Of a DNA stretch of 36,054 nt, positions 2,822-35,899 are shown one piece after another; the first letter of the stretch is position 1, and each line of letters starts with the position of its first letter. A model generated the notes under the pieces. It searched no databases. It was not told the origin of the DNA and saw only the letters and a program-made list of their open reading frames with translations. The translations under genes were made by a program, and so were the position numbers. The stretch comes from Acidobacteriota bacterium (lineage in GTDB: Bacteria > Acidobacteriota > Terriglobia > 2-12-FULL-54-10): NCBI GenBank assembly GCA_009691245.1, contig SHUM01000035.1, positions 1 to 36,054 of the forward strand, read 5' to 3'.

Positions 2822-5285
2822 GAGCGGCCTTTTGAAAATCATCCCCAAATTTATTTTTCTGTTGTTCGCCCCGCTGCTGCTCCTGGCGCTGTGGCTGGGA
2901 ATCACCGCGTGCGACATGGTCTGGAAACTGCAAGGCCGGCGGCGCTCCGCGCAACGGAAGGATCGCACCGCTCCGCACACGGAATTTGCGCCGCCACGCA
3001 ACGCCAGCGTCGTCATTCCCAACTGGAACGGCAAGGATTTGCTCGAAAAATATCTCTCGCCACTGCTCGCCGCCTGCCGCGACGAAGATGAGATCATCGT
3101 TGTGGATAACGCCAGCGCCGACGGCAGCGTGGAATATATCAGGAAAGTATTTCCCCGCGTGCGCGTGCTGGAGATGGAGCGCAATCTAGGCTTCGGCGGC
3201 GGATCGAATGCAGGCGTGCAGGCCGCGAAGCATCCGGTTGTAATACTGCTCAACAACGACATGCGCGTCCTGCCCGGCTTCGTCGAGGCGCTGCTTGCGG
3301 GTTTCGATGCGGCGGATGTCTTCGCCGTCTCCGCCCAGATATTTTTCTCCGACCCCAATAAACGCCGCGAGGAAACCGGGCTCACGGCGGGACAGTTCGA
3401 GAAGGGCTTCATCCGCGTCCGGCACATCATCGACCCGAACATCACGCAAATTGCCCCCACGCTCTACGCGGGCGGCGGCTCGACGGCGTATGACCGCGAG
3501 AAGTTTCTCTCGCTCGGCGGCTTCGATCCACTCTTCGAGCCATTCTACCTGGAAGACACCGACCTCTCCTTCAACGCCTGGCGGCAGCGCTGGCGCGTGC
3601 TCTACCAGCCCGCCGCGCACGTCTATCACGAACATCGCGGGACCATCGGCAAACACTTCACGCCGGAGACCATCTCGGCGTACCTGCAAAAAAACTATGT
3701 GCTAATGACTTGGAAGAACATCCACCGCCCCGCATGGATGGCCCTGCACTTCGCCTACACTTACGGCCACATGGTGATGAGCTTTCTGGGCCGCTGGACG
3801 CCGACGCGCACCACCATCGGCGCATTCAGCAGGGCGCTGCGCACTCTGCCTAAAGCGCTGCGGGCGCGGCGCCACGCGATTCTCAACGCCCGTCTTGAGA
3901 CCCTGAGTATTTTCAACTGCACCAGCCCGGCCCTCTACCGCGATCAATTTCTGCCGCTGGCCCCGCAGCGTGAGGCACCTGCTGCCCTGCCCGCCCCCCC
4001 CTCTGGACAACTCTCTCCGGCGCTGGCTCCGGCGCGCCGACTGAACATTCTCTTCGTCTCGCCCTACTCGATCTATCCGCCGCTGCATGGCGGCGCGGTC
4101 TTTATGTATCAGGCTCTGGAAGCGCTGTCGAAGCGACACAACATCCATCTGCTGACGTTTGTGGACCGCGCCGAGGAAGTCACCTCCAACGAAACATTGC
4201 GCGGGATGCTCCAGAGCGTGGATGTCCTCCTGCGCCGTTATCAGCCGCACCCGCTGTTTCGTCTGGAGTCCAACGCCGAGCAGACTTTCCGTGATCCTGC
4301 GTTTGCCGAGCGGCTGGAGCGCCTCATTCTGGAGCACCGCATTGATTTGGTTCAGTTCGAGTACACGCAACTGGCGCAGTTCCATCTGCCACTCCAGAAC
4401 GTCGCGCAATGCTTGTTTGAACATGACGTATACTTCCGTTCCGTGCAGCATCAGCTGACGGGCTCGCCGGGCAGGGCGATGGTAAAAGCGCGGGAGTTCC
4501 TCGAATGGTTGCGCGCGATCCGCTTCGAGCTGCGCGTGGCGAAGAAGTTTGACGCGCTGTTCACCTGCAATGTGGAGGAGCAGCGCTTGCTTCAGTCCTT
4601 TCTGAATGTGAACGACAAGCAAGCGCATTCGGCCACGAATAGACACGGTCCGCGCATCTACAGTGGCTTGCGCACGGCGGTGACTGTGGCCAGCTACACG
4701 TTCCCCGGCGGGCCGCGCACGCCGGACTCGCTGCTGTTCGTGGGAAATTTTAATCATCCCCCGAACCGGCAGGCGATCGAATATTTTTGTTCGCAAGTGT
4801 TGCCGGAGATTCGCCGCCTGCGCCCGCAAGCAAAGTTGACGGTGGTCGGCGCGAATGCGCCATCCGATTTGATGAAGAAATATACGACCGCCGATGGAGT
4901 GAGCTTCACCGGGCAGGTACCGGACATCCGCGATCCGCTCGGATCACATGCCATCTTCGTCGCGCCCATCCTGACCGGCGCTGGCGTGCGCGTGAAAATA
5001 CTCGAAGCGTTCGCCTCGGGCATTCCCGTTGTCTCCACGCCGTTCGGAGCAGAGGGCCTCGAAATCATCTCCGGCGAAAATGGATTCCTTGCGTCCACCC
5101 CGCGCGAGTTCGCGCAGCACGTCCTCACGCTGCTCGAAGACCCGGCCCGCGCCACACGCATGGCCGCCGCCGCGCACCAGATGGCGTTGAGCCAATACGA
5201 CTGGTCAACGGTGGTCAGCCATCTCGATGAAATTTATCAGGAATTAGTGGATGAAAAACTGCGCGCGGCGGACCAGCGTTGGTGA
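2808..5285 (+). CDS. Two-domain glycosyltransferase (GT2 plus GT4), membrane-anchored
   Basis: A single 825-residue protein carries two glycosyltransferase modules. Residues 11-35 form a hydrophobic N-terminal segment. A GT2 (GT-A fold) domain follows: VVIPNWNG at 68-75, VVDNASADGS at 98-107, the DxD-like NND at 149-151 and the acceptor-site ED at 249-250. From about residue 412 a second module starts (LNILFVSPYS, then PLHGG) and ends in a GT4-type donor site (FVGNFNHPPN, later GAGVRVKILEAFASGIPVV, STPFGAEG). The start is GTG 2808, overlapping the methyltransferase by 14 bases; TTG 2832 is the alternative and neither has a strong ribosome site. It probably adds two successive sugars to the glycan exported by the upstream ABC system. 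Sugar specificity cannot be read from the sequence. Confidence 0.9.
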   Translation: MTGHKSGLLKIIPKFIFLLFAPLLLLALWLGITACDMVWKLQGRRRSAQRKDRTAPHTEFAPPRNASVVIPNWNGKDLLEKYLSPLLAACRDEDEIIVVDNASADGSVEYIRKVFPRVRVLEMERNLGFGGGSNAGVQAAKHPVVILLNNDMRVLPGFVEALLAGFDAADVFAVSAQIFFSDPNKRREETGLTAGQFEKGFIRVRHIIDPNITQIAPTLYAGGGSTAYDREKFLSLGGFDPLFEPFYLEDTDLSFNAWRQRWRVLYQPAAHVYHEHRGTIGKHFTPETISAYLQKNYVLMTWKNIHRPAWMALHFAYTYGHMVMSFLGRWTPTRTTIGAFSRALRTLPKALRARRHAILNARLETLSIFNCTSPALYRDQFLPLAPQREAPAALPAPPSGQLSPALAPARRLNILFVSPYSIYPPLHGGAVFMYQALEALSKRHNIHLLTFVDRAEEVTSNETLRGMLQSVDVLLRRYQPHPLFRLESNAEQTFRDPAFAERLERLILEHRIDLVQFEYTQLAQFHLPLQNVAQCLFEHDVYFRSVQHQLTGSPGRAMVKAREFLEWLRAIRFELRVAKKFDALFTCNVEEQRLLQSFLNVNDKQAHSATNRHGPRIYSGLRTAVTVASYTFPGGPRTPDSLLFVGNFNHPPNRQAIEYFCSQVLPEIRRLRPQAKLTVVGANAPSDLMKKYTTADGVSFTGQVPDIRDPLGSHAIFVAPILTGAGVRVKILEAFASGIPVVSTPFGAEGLEIISGENGFLASTPREFAQHVLTLLEDPARATRMAAAAHQMALSQYDWSTVVSHLDEIYQELVDEKLRAADQRW

Positions 5286-5298
5286 AATTAAAATCGCT

Positions 5299-5377
5299 GT
5301 CATCCTGAGCGCAGTGAAGAACCTGCTTTTCCTCTGTAGGAAAACAAAAGCAGGTCCTTAGCTGCGCTCAGGATGAC
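5299..5377. repeat. Intergenic inverted repeat, 16-bp perfect arms
   Basis: The outer arms 5299-5314 and 5362-5377 are perfectly complementary (GTCATCCTGAGCGCAG type). Inside them ACCTGCTTTT (5321-5330) pairs with AAAAGCAGGT (5346-5355). The result is a long hairpin between the glycosyltransferase gene and the convergent barrel gene. A partial third copy (CAGGATGACATCG) follows at about 5389-5401 and again near 32966-32978, so it belongs to a dispersed family. It may also act as a bidirectional terminator, although no U-tract follows. Confidence 0.8.
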
Positions 5378-5420
5378 GATGTGATAATCAGGATGACATC
5401 GTAATAATAATGGGCGCTCG

Positions 5421-6059
5421 CTATTTTCCGAAGGTTAGCCCGACCGACAGCAAAATGCGGTGCCAGCTTCCGCCGGGTTGAAAGAAGTCCTCAGGCGCGC
5501 GCGTATATTCATCGCGCACTTCCACCTTCCAACGCACTCCGGCGAGAAATTGATGCTCGATGCCGCCGCCCAGCGCGACTACCGGCACCACGATCTGATC
5601 CGGCGGTCCGGAGGGAAACGGGTTTTCCACCTGCCGCACGACCTCTACGACCTTGAAGTTCCCCACGCCCCCACCCACGACGCCAAACAGGCGGAAGCCC
5701 TTCGCTTGCGGTGTGTGCAGGCCGAGATCAAACGTGAGCGTATGCGCAGTCAGCTCCAGATCCGCGCTCGATCCGAACGCATCGCCACGCGAGAGAAACC
5801 CTTCCGGCCGCGAGTAGCCGTAGTGAACGCCGGCGCGCATGACACGGAGAAAATCTCCTCCGCCTTCCAGCGTCAGGACGTTCCCTTTTCGGATGCCCGC
5901 CGAAAACGGATCCAGCGCGGAAGGAACCGCGGTGGCGGCGGCGCTCAAGTCGTCACCGAAACTGCGCCCCAGCCCAACTCCGAAATATTGCGCGTGCCCG
6001 ACAGCAGCGCCGCCGAGCATTCCCACCAGAAGCAAGATTACAAGTCTGACTCGATTCAT
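5421..6059 (-). CDS. Outer-membrane beta-barrel-like hypothetical protein
   Basis: The 212-residue product begins with a classic signal peptide (positive MNRVR, hydrophobic LVILLLVGMLGGAAVG, cleavage near HAQ). The rest alternates polar and hydrophobic residues as in small 8-stranded barrels (VGLGRSFG, LTFDLGLHT, GVVGGGVGNFKVVEV, LLSVGLTFGK) and has no visible catalytic motif. The start is supported by AGAGGA about six bases upstream of the ATG. It lies downstream of the 6164-6562 gene on the same strand with a gap of about 100 bases, so co-transcription is possible. The function is unknown; an OmpA-barrel-like or porin-like surface role is inferred from pattern only. Confidence 0.7.
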   Translation of the reverse strand: MNRVRLVILLLVGMLGGAAVGHAQYFGVGLGRSFGDDLSAAATAVPSALDPFSAGIRKGNVLTLEGGGDFLRVMRAGVHYGYSRPEGFLSRGDAFGSSADLELTAHTLTFDLGLHTPQAKGFRLFGVVGGGVGNFKVVEVVRQVENPFPSGPPDQIVVPVVALGGGIEHQFLAGVRWKVEVRDEYTRAPEDFFQPGGSWHRILLSVGLTFGK

Positions 6060-6163
6060 TTTGGTCCTCTCGAAATTTTCATATGTGCAGCGGCAGGCTC
6101 GGCTGTGCCAATTGCCTGTGCCGATTCTATCGTCAAGCGCGATGCCCGGGAAGGTACCAAAAT

Positions 6164-6562
6164 CTATTCAGGAGCGGCGCGCTCCACGCGGACCTCCACC
6201 TCGATCGCTTCATCGGCCTTCACGGTAATCTTCGCGGGACTCTTCACCAGATACAGCGCGGGCGAGAGCTTGAAGATGTAGGTTCCGGGATAGACATCGG
6301 CAAACTCAAACTGGCCGATGGGATTGACGTCCTTGCGGTAGATCATGCCGAGTTCGAGGTTCTCGATCATCAGCCACACCCCGCCGAGCGGCTTACCGTT
6401 CACCTTGAGCACTTTGCCGTAAACAATACCCACGCCCTGCGATCCCTTCCGTTGCTGCGCGATGGCGGGCCACGCCAAAATAATCAGAATCACCGACGCG
6501 ACCAGCGCGGGAATATATCGCGCTGGACGGAATCCCTGCGGTCTACTTATCGGCTTGCTCAT
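6164..6562 (-). CDS. Small secreted carboxypeptidase-regulatory-like domain protein
   Basis: This 132-residue protein has an N-terminal signal or anchor segment (YIPALVASVILIILAWPAIA, cleavage near AQQ). It then has one beta-sandwich of the carboxypeptidase regulatory type: VYGKVLKVNGKPLGGVWLMI, then GQFEFADVYPGTYIFKL, then a final strand ending VEVRVERA. Such domains bind carbohydrate or serve as adhesive modules in the periplasm or at the surface. A GGGGAG ribosome site lies about nine bases upstream of the ATG. It is divergent from the 6820 gene and is probably the first gene of a two-gene unit with the barrel protein. No catalytic residues are visible. Confidence 0.65.
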   Translation of the reverse strand: MSKPISRPQGFRPARYIPALVASVILIILAWPAIAQQRKGSQGVGIVYGKVLKVNGKPLGGVWLMIENLELGMIYRKDVNPIGQFEFADVYPGTYIFKLSPALYLVKSPAKITVKADEAIEVEVRVERAAPE

Positions 6563-6819
6563 GGATCAGGTCTCCCCAGTCACTTTTGATTACGCCTGCA
6601 CCCTTTACGATTCCCCGCCAAATTATGTAGAATCCCAATTGGGCCTATACACGGCCCGTTCCACAGGATGCCGCGGCGAATCGAAGTACACCTGTGGAGT
6701 ACATCTGGCACGTTACTCCAGTCAGGGCTTTGGCTCAAGCGGACGCGCCCGCCGATGGATCAAGTTCGCAGGACGTCCGCTATCATTTATCATTCTGATT
6801 GTTTGAAACGAGGGGAACA

Positions 6820-7632
6820 ATGGCAACACTGCAAAAGCAAGTGAAGACGGAGATCGCCGGCATCATGGACCGCTACACTGGCGCGATGGATACGCTGGTG
6901 AAGGCGTTCGCCAAGCGGCGCAACAGCACGCGCGATATTTATTGGCTGGCGCTGCAAGCGTCCAAGGAGTTCGGAGCCATCCGCACGCACGCCCGCGTTA
7001 TGATGTCCCGCGCCAAGCGGATGGAGCCGCTCGCCGACATCAAGAAATCAGCGCATGACTCGGCCGAGGAGATTGACCACTACTACGGTTATCGCCAGAT
7101 ACTTGATTGGAAGCTGAACGGCAAGACCTGTACTGTGAACCGCTGGTGGGATTACGGCGATTTCGCCGAAGAGGGCGGCGCGGGTCCGAAGATGTCCGCC
7201 AAGCTGTGGCCGGAGCACGTCGGCTATCTGGAACTGAACAAGAAGCTCGCCAGGCAGACCAAATCACAGTGGGTGCGCGACGTGATTCTCTCGAATCGCG
7301 AAGGCGCAGCCGTGGCTTTCCATTTTGTGATGAGCCACCTGCCCGCGAAAGACGCGTACATGAAGAAGATTACCAAGCACGAGCATGCCGTCGCTGTGGA
7401 TGAACTGCATCATGGCCCCGAGATGATCGACGAGCTGGCCAAGACGGTCAAATCGCCGAGGGACCTGGAGACCGCCAAGAAGGCCATCATGCAGATGCGC
7501 ATTCAGGAGCTGCGCCAACGCAACGAGCAGTTCCTCTATCCGCTGTCGGCGCGCGAACTGGCCAAGCTGGAGAAGGATTTCCTCGCGGGTAAGACCCCGG
7601 CGATCCCTCTGTTCTCCACCGGCAAAGTGTAA
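6820..7632 (+). CDS. Uncharacterised all-helical protein, possible diiron ligands
   Basis: I do not recognise this 270-residue protein as a named family. The start is ATG 6820 with AGGGG five bases upstream; the TTG at 6799 in the same frame is less likely. It is rich in Lys, Glu and Ala, predicted mostly helical, and has no signal peptide. Possible metal ligands are spaced as in ferritin-like or heme-oxygenase-like diiron proteins: E84-x2-H87 (EIDH), E161 (REGAAVAFH, with H168), and E195-x2-H198 (ELHH), plus H187 and H189. A tryptophan-rich insert (NRWWDYGDF, 107-115) sits between the first and second candidate helices. It is monocistronic, ending 33 bases before an intrinsic terminator. The diiron reading is inference from spacing only. 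Confidence 0.75.
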   Translation: MATLQKQVKTEIAGIMDRYTGAMDTLVKAFAKRRNSTRDIYWLALQASKEFGAIRTHARVMMSRAKRMEPLADIKKSAHDSAEEIDHYYGYRQILDWKLNGKTCTVNRWWDYGDFAEEGGAGPKMSAKLWPEHVGYLELNKKLARQTKSQWVRDVILSNREGAAVAFHFVMSHLPAKDAYMKKITKHEHAVAVDELHHGPEMIDELAKTVKSPRDLETAKKAIMQMRIQELRQRNEQFLYPLSARELAKLEKDFLAGKTPAIPLFSTGKV

Positions 7633-34022: not shown

Positions 34023-35144
34023 GTGCTTATTGTTCGTCTGAAAACCTGTCTTGTGATCATGGCCGCGCTGGTGTTGGTGTCAGCGTCGGTGTCAGCGGCT
34101 CCAATGCAGGCGCAGCAGGCCGCACCGCAAGAGGGCAGCTTCATCCTGCGCGATTTCCGCTTTCAGTCCGGCGAGACGCTGCCTGAGCTGCGCGTGTTCT
34201 ATCGCACTCTGGGAACGCCCGCGCGCGACGCACAGGGCCGCGTTATCAACGCCGTGCTGCTGCTGCACGGGACCAGCGGGAGCGGTGCAAGCTTTCTCAT
34301 CCCCGCTTACATGAACGGCATGTTTGGTCCGGGACAGTTGCTCGACGCGGCACGCTACTACCTGATCATCCCGGACAACATCGGCACCGGCGGATCGAGC
34401 AAGCCGAGCGACGGCCTGCGCATGAAGTTTCCCAAGTACGACTATGACGACATGGTCTTGTCGCAATTCCGCCTGCTCACCGAGCATCTGAAGGTGGATC
34501 ACTTGCGCCTGCTGCTCGGGACTTCGCAGGGCTGCATGCACTCCTACCTGTGGTCCATCCAGCACGCGGCGTTCATGGACGCCACGTTCGCCATGGCCTG
34601 CCAGCCGGTGGAGATCGCGGGCCTGAACCGCATGAGGCGCAAGATGATGAACGACGTCATCATGAACGATCCGGCTTGGATGGGCGGGAACTACACAGCG
34701 AAGCCGAAAGCGGGGCTGGCCTCCGCGCTGCTGATGAGCGCGCTGGTCGGCGTCTCGCAGTTGAACTTCCAACAGACCTATCCCACGCGCGCCGCGATGG
34801 ACAAGTATGTGGATGACTACATCAAGAGTGAGCTGCCCAAGCGCGACGCCAACGACGTGATCTATCAGTACGATTCCTCGCGCAACTACGACCCGCGCGC
34901 GGAACTGGGCAAGATCACCACGCAATTCCTGCATGTTAATTCAGCGGACGACATCATCAATCCGCCGGAGCTGGGCAGCGTGGAGCGCGAGATCAAGAAG
35001 GTGAAGAACGGCCGCTTCGTGCTGATCCCCATCAGCGAAAAGACGCGCGGCCACCAGAGCTACAACTACCCGGAGCTCTGGAAGCAGTATATGGAGGAAC
35101 TGCTGAAGGCTTCTGTCCCATCGCAATTATCAGGACGACAGTAG
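34023..35144 (+). CDS. Secreted MetX-like alpha/beta hydrolase
   Basis: A 373-residue alpha/beta-hydrolase of the homoserine O-acetyltransferase (MetX) type with an N-terminal signal peptide (CLVIMAALVLVSASVSAAP). The fold is marked by LLLHGTSGSG, IPDNIGTGGSSKPSDG, the nucleophile elbow GTSQG with S168, the acid D309/D310 in VNSADDIINPPE and H344 in RGHQSYN. Cytoplasmic MetX has no signal peptide and carries GGSxGGM with a long conserved block; here the elbow is GTSQGCM. It is therefore more likely a periplasmic esterase or acyltransferase than a methionine enzyme. GTG 34023 is the start, with AGGGAG five bases upstream. Confidence 0.85.
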   Translation: MLIVRLKTCLVIMAALVLVSASVSAAPMQAQQAAPQEGSFILRDFRFQSGETLPELRVFYRTLGTPARDAQGRVINAVLLLHGTSGSGASFLIPAYMNGMFGPGQLLDAARYYLIIPDNIGTGGSSKPSDGLRMKFPKYDYDDMVLSQFRLLTEHLKVDHLRLLLGTSQGCMHSYLWSIQHAAFMDATFAMACQPVEIAGLNRMRRKMMNDVIMNDPAWMGGNYTAKPKAGLASALLMSALVGVSQLNFQQTYPTRAAMDKYVDDYIKSELPKRDANDVIYQYDSSRNYDPRAELGKITTQFLHVNSADDIINPPELGSVEREIKKVKNGRFVLIPISEKTRGHQSYNYPELWKQYMEELLKASVPSQLSGRQ

Positions 35145-35179: not shown

Positions 35180-35860
35180 CTACTTAAACTGGACGCGCGA
35201 TTCCCACTCATTATCCAGATATACACAGAATTCCTGGACAATGCCGATGGCAATTCTCAGTTTTTCCGCTGTCACTTCAATTCGGTGGGGTTCAAATTTA
35301 GCAGAACTCGAGTAGACGTGCGGCCACGCATCCTTCTCCCAATCGCTTGCAAATAGCGAATCAGGAAACCTTACAAAGTACTTCGAATCTTGCTTTACGC
35401 TTAGGTCCCAAATGCTTCCGTCGTGCCAGATTGCGTTCCGTGCAAGTGCGATCTCCTCCAGAGAACTAAGACCAACAGGCGCTTTGTCCCAATCGATGTC
35501 GTAGCGGTTCTTATAAAAGTTCTTATATCTTTTAAAGTCGCTCTTCCCCGTAGCCTGTCGGCTGACGAACTCCGACACCTCGGTCAGATCCAATTGCTCG
35601 CTTCTGGAGATGAATCCGGGAAGAAATTCACCGAATGATCGTTGCACGAGCGATAAGCAACACTGGCCAAGAATATTTAGTGACTCTTGCGCATCCTGCC
35701 ATTCTCCTTCAAATGGAACAGAGTCCTCTGAATCGAAGTTGTCGTATGGTTCCTCCTGGTTTTCTATCTTAGAAATTACAGTTGTAAAGGACTCTGATGC
35801 GTTTGCATAGAACCGTTCCAAAAAACGAAGCTTTCGGCTGAGCATGTCAAGGATGTCCAT
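35180..35860 (-). CDS. Hypothetical protein with a HEPN-like R-N-x3-H motif
   Basis: I do not recognise this 226-residue soluble protein as a named family. It is helical and acidic, with an N-terminal amphipathic helix (MLSRKLRFLERFYANAS). The central EEIALARNAIWHDGS carries R141-N142-x3-H146, the spacing and Asn of HEPN-type RNases (R-x4-6-H). The gene is visibly richer in A/T, and in Lys, Asn, Tyr and Phe codons, than its neighbours, which suggests horizontal acquisition. It lies 39 bases downstream of the rho stop on the same strand and may be co-transcribed with it. No nucleotidyltransferase (MNT) or other toxin/antitoxin partner is visible beside it. The HEPN assignment rests on one motif. 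Confidence 0.7.
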   Translation of the reverse strand: MDILDMLSRKLRFLERFYANASESFTTVISKIENQEEPYDNFDSEDSVPFEGEWQDAQESLNILGQCCLSLVQRSFGEFLPGFISRSEQLDLTEVSEFVSRQATGKSDFKRYKNFYKNRYDIDWDKAPVGLSSLEEIALARNAIWHDGSIWDLSVKQDSKYFVRFPDSLFASDWEKDAWPHVYSSSAKFEPHRIEVTAEKLRIAIGIVQEFCVYLDNEWESRVQFK

Positions 35861-35899
35861 ACATACAATCCCCGAAAAAACTTCTACTTCGACGCAATA

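Follow-up and report, generated by a model that had tools for sequence, protein, structure and literature searches.

A HEPN-type protein gene beside rho in an Acidobacteriota genome: member of a conserved, uncharacterised family and probable stand-alone defence RNase

The gene for the transcription termination factor Rho is followed, in the Acidobacteriota genome studied here, by a small gene of conspicuously low GC content, which raises the question of what its product does and how it came to lie there. The window, i.e. the whole stretch of DNA analysed (36,054 nucleotides), is a complete contig that ends inside rho (Table 1). Our analysis identifies the product as a member of a conserved, uncharacterised HEPN-type family, probably a stand-alone defence RNase, whose gene was probably acquired into a variable slot beside rho. 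A first-pass annotation, made from the sequence, had described an AT-richer gene with an R-N-x3-H motif 39 bases behind rho on the same strand. This description was confirmed in its position, its motif (residues 141 to 146) and its deviant base composition.

The open reading frame starts with ATG, in agreement with the family, most members of which open with M-D. Its upstream neighbour on the same strand was recognised as the C-terminus of Rho (TIGR00767, E 2.3e-11), and both neighbours, rho and a hydrolase gene, are non-defence genes. The GC content of 46.7% compares with a mean of 59.5% (SD 2.8) for 58 other mechanically called reading frames of at least 150 amino acids, taken from the window and from three further contigs of its genome (z -4.6; none of the 58 is as low). 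GC at third codon positions is low, too (52% vs. 71%, z -2.6, two of the 58 being lower).

Table 1. Features of the window around the gene
Feature	Position	Strand	Evidence or remark
HEPN-type protein gene, 226 aa	35180..35860	-	ORF; 48-row family alignment; PHROG 28203, E 1.2e-27; AlphaFold model, pLDDT 90
R141-N142-A-I-W-H146 codons, Rx4H active-site motif at end of predicted helix 3 (131-146)	35423..35440	-	R, N and H in 47/48 rows; model helix limits
E135 codon, invariant, on the motif's own helix	35456..35458	-	47/48 rows, the exception truncated
E53 codon, near-invariant acidic residue in predicted helix 2 (51-88)	35702..35704	-	47/48 rows, one Q; model helix limits
39-nt gap from rho stop to ATG	35861..35899	-	No consensus promoter or terminator found in the gap
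rho, C-terminal 50 codons and stop, at contig end	35900..36052	-	Stretch occurs twice in the genome's assembly
Alpha/beta hydrolase gene (PRK06489), convergent; other border of the slot	34023..35144	+	Adjacent region also follows rho in genomes G001 and G003

Family, conserved motif and predicted fold

The window protein matched no Pfam or NCBIfam family at E ≤ 1, and PHROG 28203, a viral protein family without functional annotation, over its full length; this match places the two in the same family. The only HEPN match in the family libraries was a weak one to the PADLOC model RTasHEPN (PDLC03820, listed under DRT; E 8.5e-5, residues 110 to 220), which was also reached by 5 of 40 members. None of these 40 had an E-value below 0.01 against Pfam, and a single one reached HEPN_Apea (E 0.09). 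The profile search proposed in the first-pass annotation thus yielded a weak HEPN match and no HEPN family of Pfam or NCBIfam.

Relatives were collected from other genomes of the class, from six plasmid records and from a scan of genome contigs, in which 119 candidate stretches led to 42 confirmed loci; the partial loci L050 and L051 were excluded from the alignments. Of 48 aligned rows, 47 (every complete copy) carry E135, R141, N142 and H146; the sole exception (L039) has an in-frame stop before the motif and a gap there. Furthermore, P38 and P49 occur in all 48 rows, and E53 in 47 with one Q. Because ARN was part of one search string, the 19 rows lacking this string were counted separately; 18 keep all four residues and the nineteenth is L039. 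Taken alone the motif is common by chance, R[NDH]x3H being found in 14 of 123 random control proteins, and it is its conservation in 47 of 48 members that lifts it above this background. The R141-N142-x3-H146 sequence corresponds to the Rx4-6H motif with a polar residue after the arginine which excerpts of PMC3710099 give as characteristic of HEPN proteins. The family tree broadly tracks class, and the window protein clustered with two others from its class (97% SH-aLRT, on long branches). One member (L020:6001-7266) carries a C-terminal extension of about 190 amino acids in which R-N-x3-H occurs again (RNTAEH); it may be a tandem HEPN fusion.

AlphaFold2 gave confident models for the window protein (40 rows; pLDDT 90.0, pTM 0.87) and for the relative L038 (27 rows; pLDDT 89.8, pTM 0.87); the structure alignment A3 also excluded L048, L039, the plasmid relatives and those from genome searches. 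The window model has helices at residues 3-33 (kinked), 51-88, 131-146 and 198-225 and a helical insert at 92-120. In both models the first helix is kinked or long, and the second, also long, starts just before the conserved glutamate (E53 in the window protein). A helical insert follows, then a third helix that reaches the motif histidine or stops beside it; the last helix is long. The predicted models reproduce the four-helix up-down bundle outlined for HEPN proteins in the same excerpts of PMC3710099, where helix 3 closes with the motif, helix 2 contributes an acidic residue and an insert separates these two helices.

In the structure comparison by VIA-align, ranks 1 to 15 for the window protein (Z 8.1 to 6.2) and ranks 1 to 10 for L038 (Z 9.0 to 6.4) were occupied by HEPN-fold toxins, NT-associated HEPN-fold proteins and Csm6, joined by HepS in the window-protein list only; the first unrelated rows followed at Z 6.1 and 6.4, respectively, and Z-values of 8 to 9 are modest for helical proteins, VIA-align's own note asking for about 13 for helical bundles. 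The titles of most of the top rows name HEPN or Csm6. The entries 6m6u, 6m6w, 7bxo, 1wty and 9oik we take to be HEPN-type. The entry 5yep was classed as HEPN after PMC11087260, as far as its available sections go. Plain Foldseek found no PDB match at E ≤ 0.001 for the window model; no entry among its best 50 is titled HEPN, and 3jrt, called HEPN in an excerpt of PMC3710099, is present. A BFVD structure search gave an unnamed phage protein as best match (E 0.017), and sequence searches of the PDB gave no credible match. Since the Z-values are modest and the Foldseek matches not significant, we based the fold call on how the matches rank for two models and on the motif geometry. Sequence and model show the window protein as a predicted HEPN-type helical bundle in which R141, N142 and H146 close helix 3, E53 lies in helix 2 and E135 is conserved. 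The HEPN fold and active site proposed in the first-pass annotation are thereby supported by both models, the VIA-align ranking and the conserved motif; neither a non-HEPN fold nor, apart from the truncated copy, variation of the motif residues among homologues was seen.

A HEPN fold does not necessarily imply RNase activity. Some HEPN families have lost the motif (PMC3710099, in part) and L039 contains an internal stop, so that the window protein might be a binding or regulatory protein or a decaying remnant. We regard this as unlikely, as the whole active-site set is kept even in members only 16-30% identical to the window protein and the window reading frame is intact.

A solitary gene and its neighbours

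Of 46 loci, at most 6 share any one neighbour family, the most frequent being a UmuC-like polymerase whose position varies and which was named by sequence reading and plasmid annotation. In 12 of 14 close pairs, DNA homology extends no further than 113 nt upstream and 43 nt downstream of the gene, the exceptions being L041/L046 (homology over 1055 nt upstream) and L012/L018 (1734 nt downstream). The gene is single-copy in 32 of 32 genomes, a count which excludes locus L012. It was found in 3 of 151 relatives; across the phylum it occurs in 2 of 396 genomes and across the class in 6 of 399, the window's own genome counted and one of the six (G084) being a short partial match. All six other genomes of the bacterial family that were searched lack a match, and all six have a match to rho. 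Relatives occur in the six plasmid records, where the proteins examined are labelled hypothetical, and one (L052) in viral contigs. The window protein itself matched neither the phage collection nor the viral contigs. The sequences show a patchy family with apparently gene-sized mobility. Two further proposals of the first-pass annotation gain weight here: a solitary gene without partner, from the neighbour, copy-number and homology-edge counts and the 51-locus survey, and a foreign acquisition, from the low GC content and the rarity among relatives and in the class. A second HEPN gene as partner was considered and rejected, the motif occurring scarcely more often in adjacent genes (9 of 72, one being the rest of L039) than in control proteins (14 of 123); a downstream neighbour in L013 carries RNAFAH and an upstream neighbour in L015 RHCCVH.

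When large neighbours (20 of 123) were tested singly with PADLOC, 13 gave no match and seven matched: PDC-M37B/DolB-like (L010), Hachiman HamB (L027), IetS (L038, L039), RT-protease XI (L041), a SIR2-Argonaute partner (L046) and Ppl/mad3 (L017). A pentapeptide-TIR protein adjoins L002, and a Vsr-like endonuclease and a DNA cytosine methylase, identified by sequence reading, lie beside L158. An IetS-kind serine protease was seen near the gene in L036, L038 and L039, and an IetA-like ATPase in two of these loci. At E ≤ 1e-10, 145 PADLOC models were matched among the 123 neighbours compared with 4 among 123 controls, but these counts are inflated by single proteins that are counted many times, one RT matching 39 models and one helicase 25. 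Counted per protein, there are at least nine named defence neighbours (the seven tested singly and two IetA) compared with at most five in the control, a modest enrichment in raw counts. The 123 neighbours are what remained of 130 after removal of seven (four of L048, a near copy of L035, and three of L050), five loci that lacked an assigned gene call contributing none; the control comprises 123 of 137 proteins, from 40 of 46 windows drawn as random stretches of the same contigs. Neighbours and mobility together suggest a role in defence.

The slot behind rho

In a congener (G001), a DUF4258 gene lies behind rho and overlaps one for an MqsA-like antitoxin, whose match falls just under the Pfam cut-off; next come a 50-bp copy of the rho 3' end, a short gene and the same hydrolase. 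The 50-bp copy after this cassette (L085:110-912, contig C197) is closer to the rho of the window genome than to that of G001 itself. Behind rho in G003 there is a partial repeat of the rho 3' end and, next, hydrolase-matching DNA; this repeat (L097, contig C175, reverse strand, 723-949 from the contig end) is out of frame and alters the predicted Rho C-terminus. The rho-hydrolase slot is thus variable, holding the HEPN gene, a toxin-antitoxin-like cassette or neither, in three genomes, which are too few to call it a hotspot.

The congener's cassette bears on a reading of the window protein as a HepT-like toxin of a toxin-antitoxin pair whose antitoxin lies elsewhere or went unrecognised. HepT toxins are the best structural matches, too. 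A nucleotidyltransferase motif of the MntA kind, searched with a pattern of our own making, was, however, not found within about 2.5 kb of the gene in 51 loci or in the final 6 kb of the window, and there is no conserved small partner gene, homology ending at the gene edges. We therefore give this reading a low probability, too.

Rho itself is nearby in none of the 51 other family loci. The survey of rho-downstream slots suggested in the first-pass annotation bore out a variable slot in the three genomes compared; the family gene is not linked to rho elsewhere. A functional tie to rho was rejected on this count and on the unrelated cassettes in the same slot of relatives. Read-through transcription from rho into the gene is possible. 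Housekeeping RNA processing tied to rho or transcription termination, which the 39-nt same-strand gap without a predicted terminator might suggest, is already contradicted by the absence of rho at 51 of 51 other loci, the lack of the gene in all six family genomes with a rho match and the foreign base composition, and is very improbable.

In its assembly, the window genome (G000) contains two rho N-termini, on contigs C13 and C44, which share a 149-bp end, and two C-termini, on C34 and C35, whose contig ends are identical over 149 bp. The N-terminus on C13 follows tig, clpP, clpX and lon (sequences so read). The N-terminal parts (L112, L113) differ, with 84% DNA identity over the shared 341 bp, and the middle and 3' parts are near-identical. 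This looks like gene conversion between paralogues, or a strain mixture. The identical ends of C34 and C35 had led us to consider the rho 3' end as an attachment site, an idea largely dropped because there are two rho N-termini as well. The ends are explained by two near-identical rho genes merged by the assembler; a strain mixture might produce them, too. Left over from the attachment-site idea are the 50-bp copy in G001 and the partial repeat in G003. Sequences of C44 and of a C35 gene, which resemble the single rho locus of G004, suggest that the window belongs to the C44 rho copy. Beside the other copy (L083 on C34; reverse strand, 836-911 and 3631-6839) lie a DinB-like gene, identified by eye, and a tRNA-Met; further along L083 there are two tandem paralogous stretches, 78% identical.

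Proposed role and comparison with known systems

The reading we prefer, with a probability of roughly 0.6, is that of a stand-alone, metal-independent HEPN RNase, latent until infection, which acts as an abortive-infection effector and was acquired between rho and the hydrolase gene. Its RNase activity, trigger and defence role are inferred as follows. The protein would form a homodimer in which two Rx4H motifs build one RNA-cutting cleft, as in HEPN RNases. It would be latent in healthy cells and be released by a phage-derived or damage signal, and RNA cleavage would then arrest or kill the cell before the phage matures. The conserved N-terminal stretch (residues 1-60) may be the likeliest place for self-inhibition or sensing. 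The gene, inserted between rho and the alpha/beta hydrolase gene, may ride on transcription from rho, which would have no part in the mechanism. A lone RNase needs to be silenced, and our finding no such mechanism counts against the stand-alone reading.

A wider reading, which we put forward tentatively, is that of a single-gene immune family without a name so far, whose one compact HEPN protein would be both sensor and RNase and whose gene would move bare between genomes; in this bacterial family, the space behind a duplicated rho would be a landing slot for interchanging toxin-type genes. We found no description of the family or of the rho-side slot in titles and abstract openings of the literature, subscription papers lying mostly outside this search. 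The curated family libraries searched omit the family, so defence finders likely miss it. Being small, self-contained and present in many proteobacteria, it is readily testable, and would offer a minimal example for studying how an RNase without a partner is silenced and set off. For further cargo in the bacterial family, the slot beside rho is a definite site to search.

Compared with known systems, the RTasHEPN match is weak and of half length, and no RT gene lies beside the window gene; an RT occurs near one relative (L041), not systematically across the family. AbiD/F co-occurs with the non-coding RNA RF03085 (PMC12165695, in part), which was not found, an Rfam scan of the whole window at gathering scores giving only a tRNA. 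HepS of the Gifsy-1 prophage, which the title of PDB entry 9oik describes as bound to the J tail tip of phage lambda, is listed for both models (Z 6.2 over 130 residues and Z 6.0 over 125), with Z-values no better than those of designed bundles and without a sequence match in the PDB searches.

The best structural matches of both models are to HepT of HepT-MntA (PDB 7ae8, 7ae6, 5yep, 6m6u), with a modest Z of 7.7-9.0 over 127-140 residues at 3.5-4.8 Å and 4-12% identity over the aligned part. HepT shares the Rx4H motif (R102/H107, from PDB titles), but the window protein is about 75-95 residues longer and has no MNT antitoxin gene with it. A functional parallel may be Tha, a HEPN protein of S. 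aureus prophages with R-N-x3-H (RNSIMH), which, in the available sections of PMC11087260, is described as an RNase that phage tail proteins activate and that no longer defends when the motif histidine is changed. In Tha (301 amino acids) the HEPN part (184-296) follows a separate N-terminal part, whereas the HEPN helices of the window protein span all 226 residues; Tha was compared by its description there. An RNase released from latency on infection is suggested by analogy with Tha, an analogy which spans active site and effector type, not sequence or trigger. Several validated defence systems contain HEPN domains (PMC13092281, in part).
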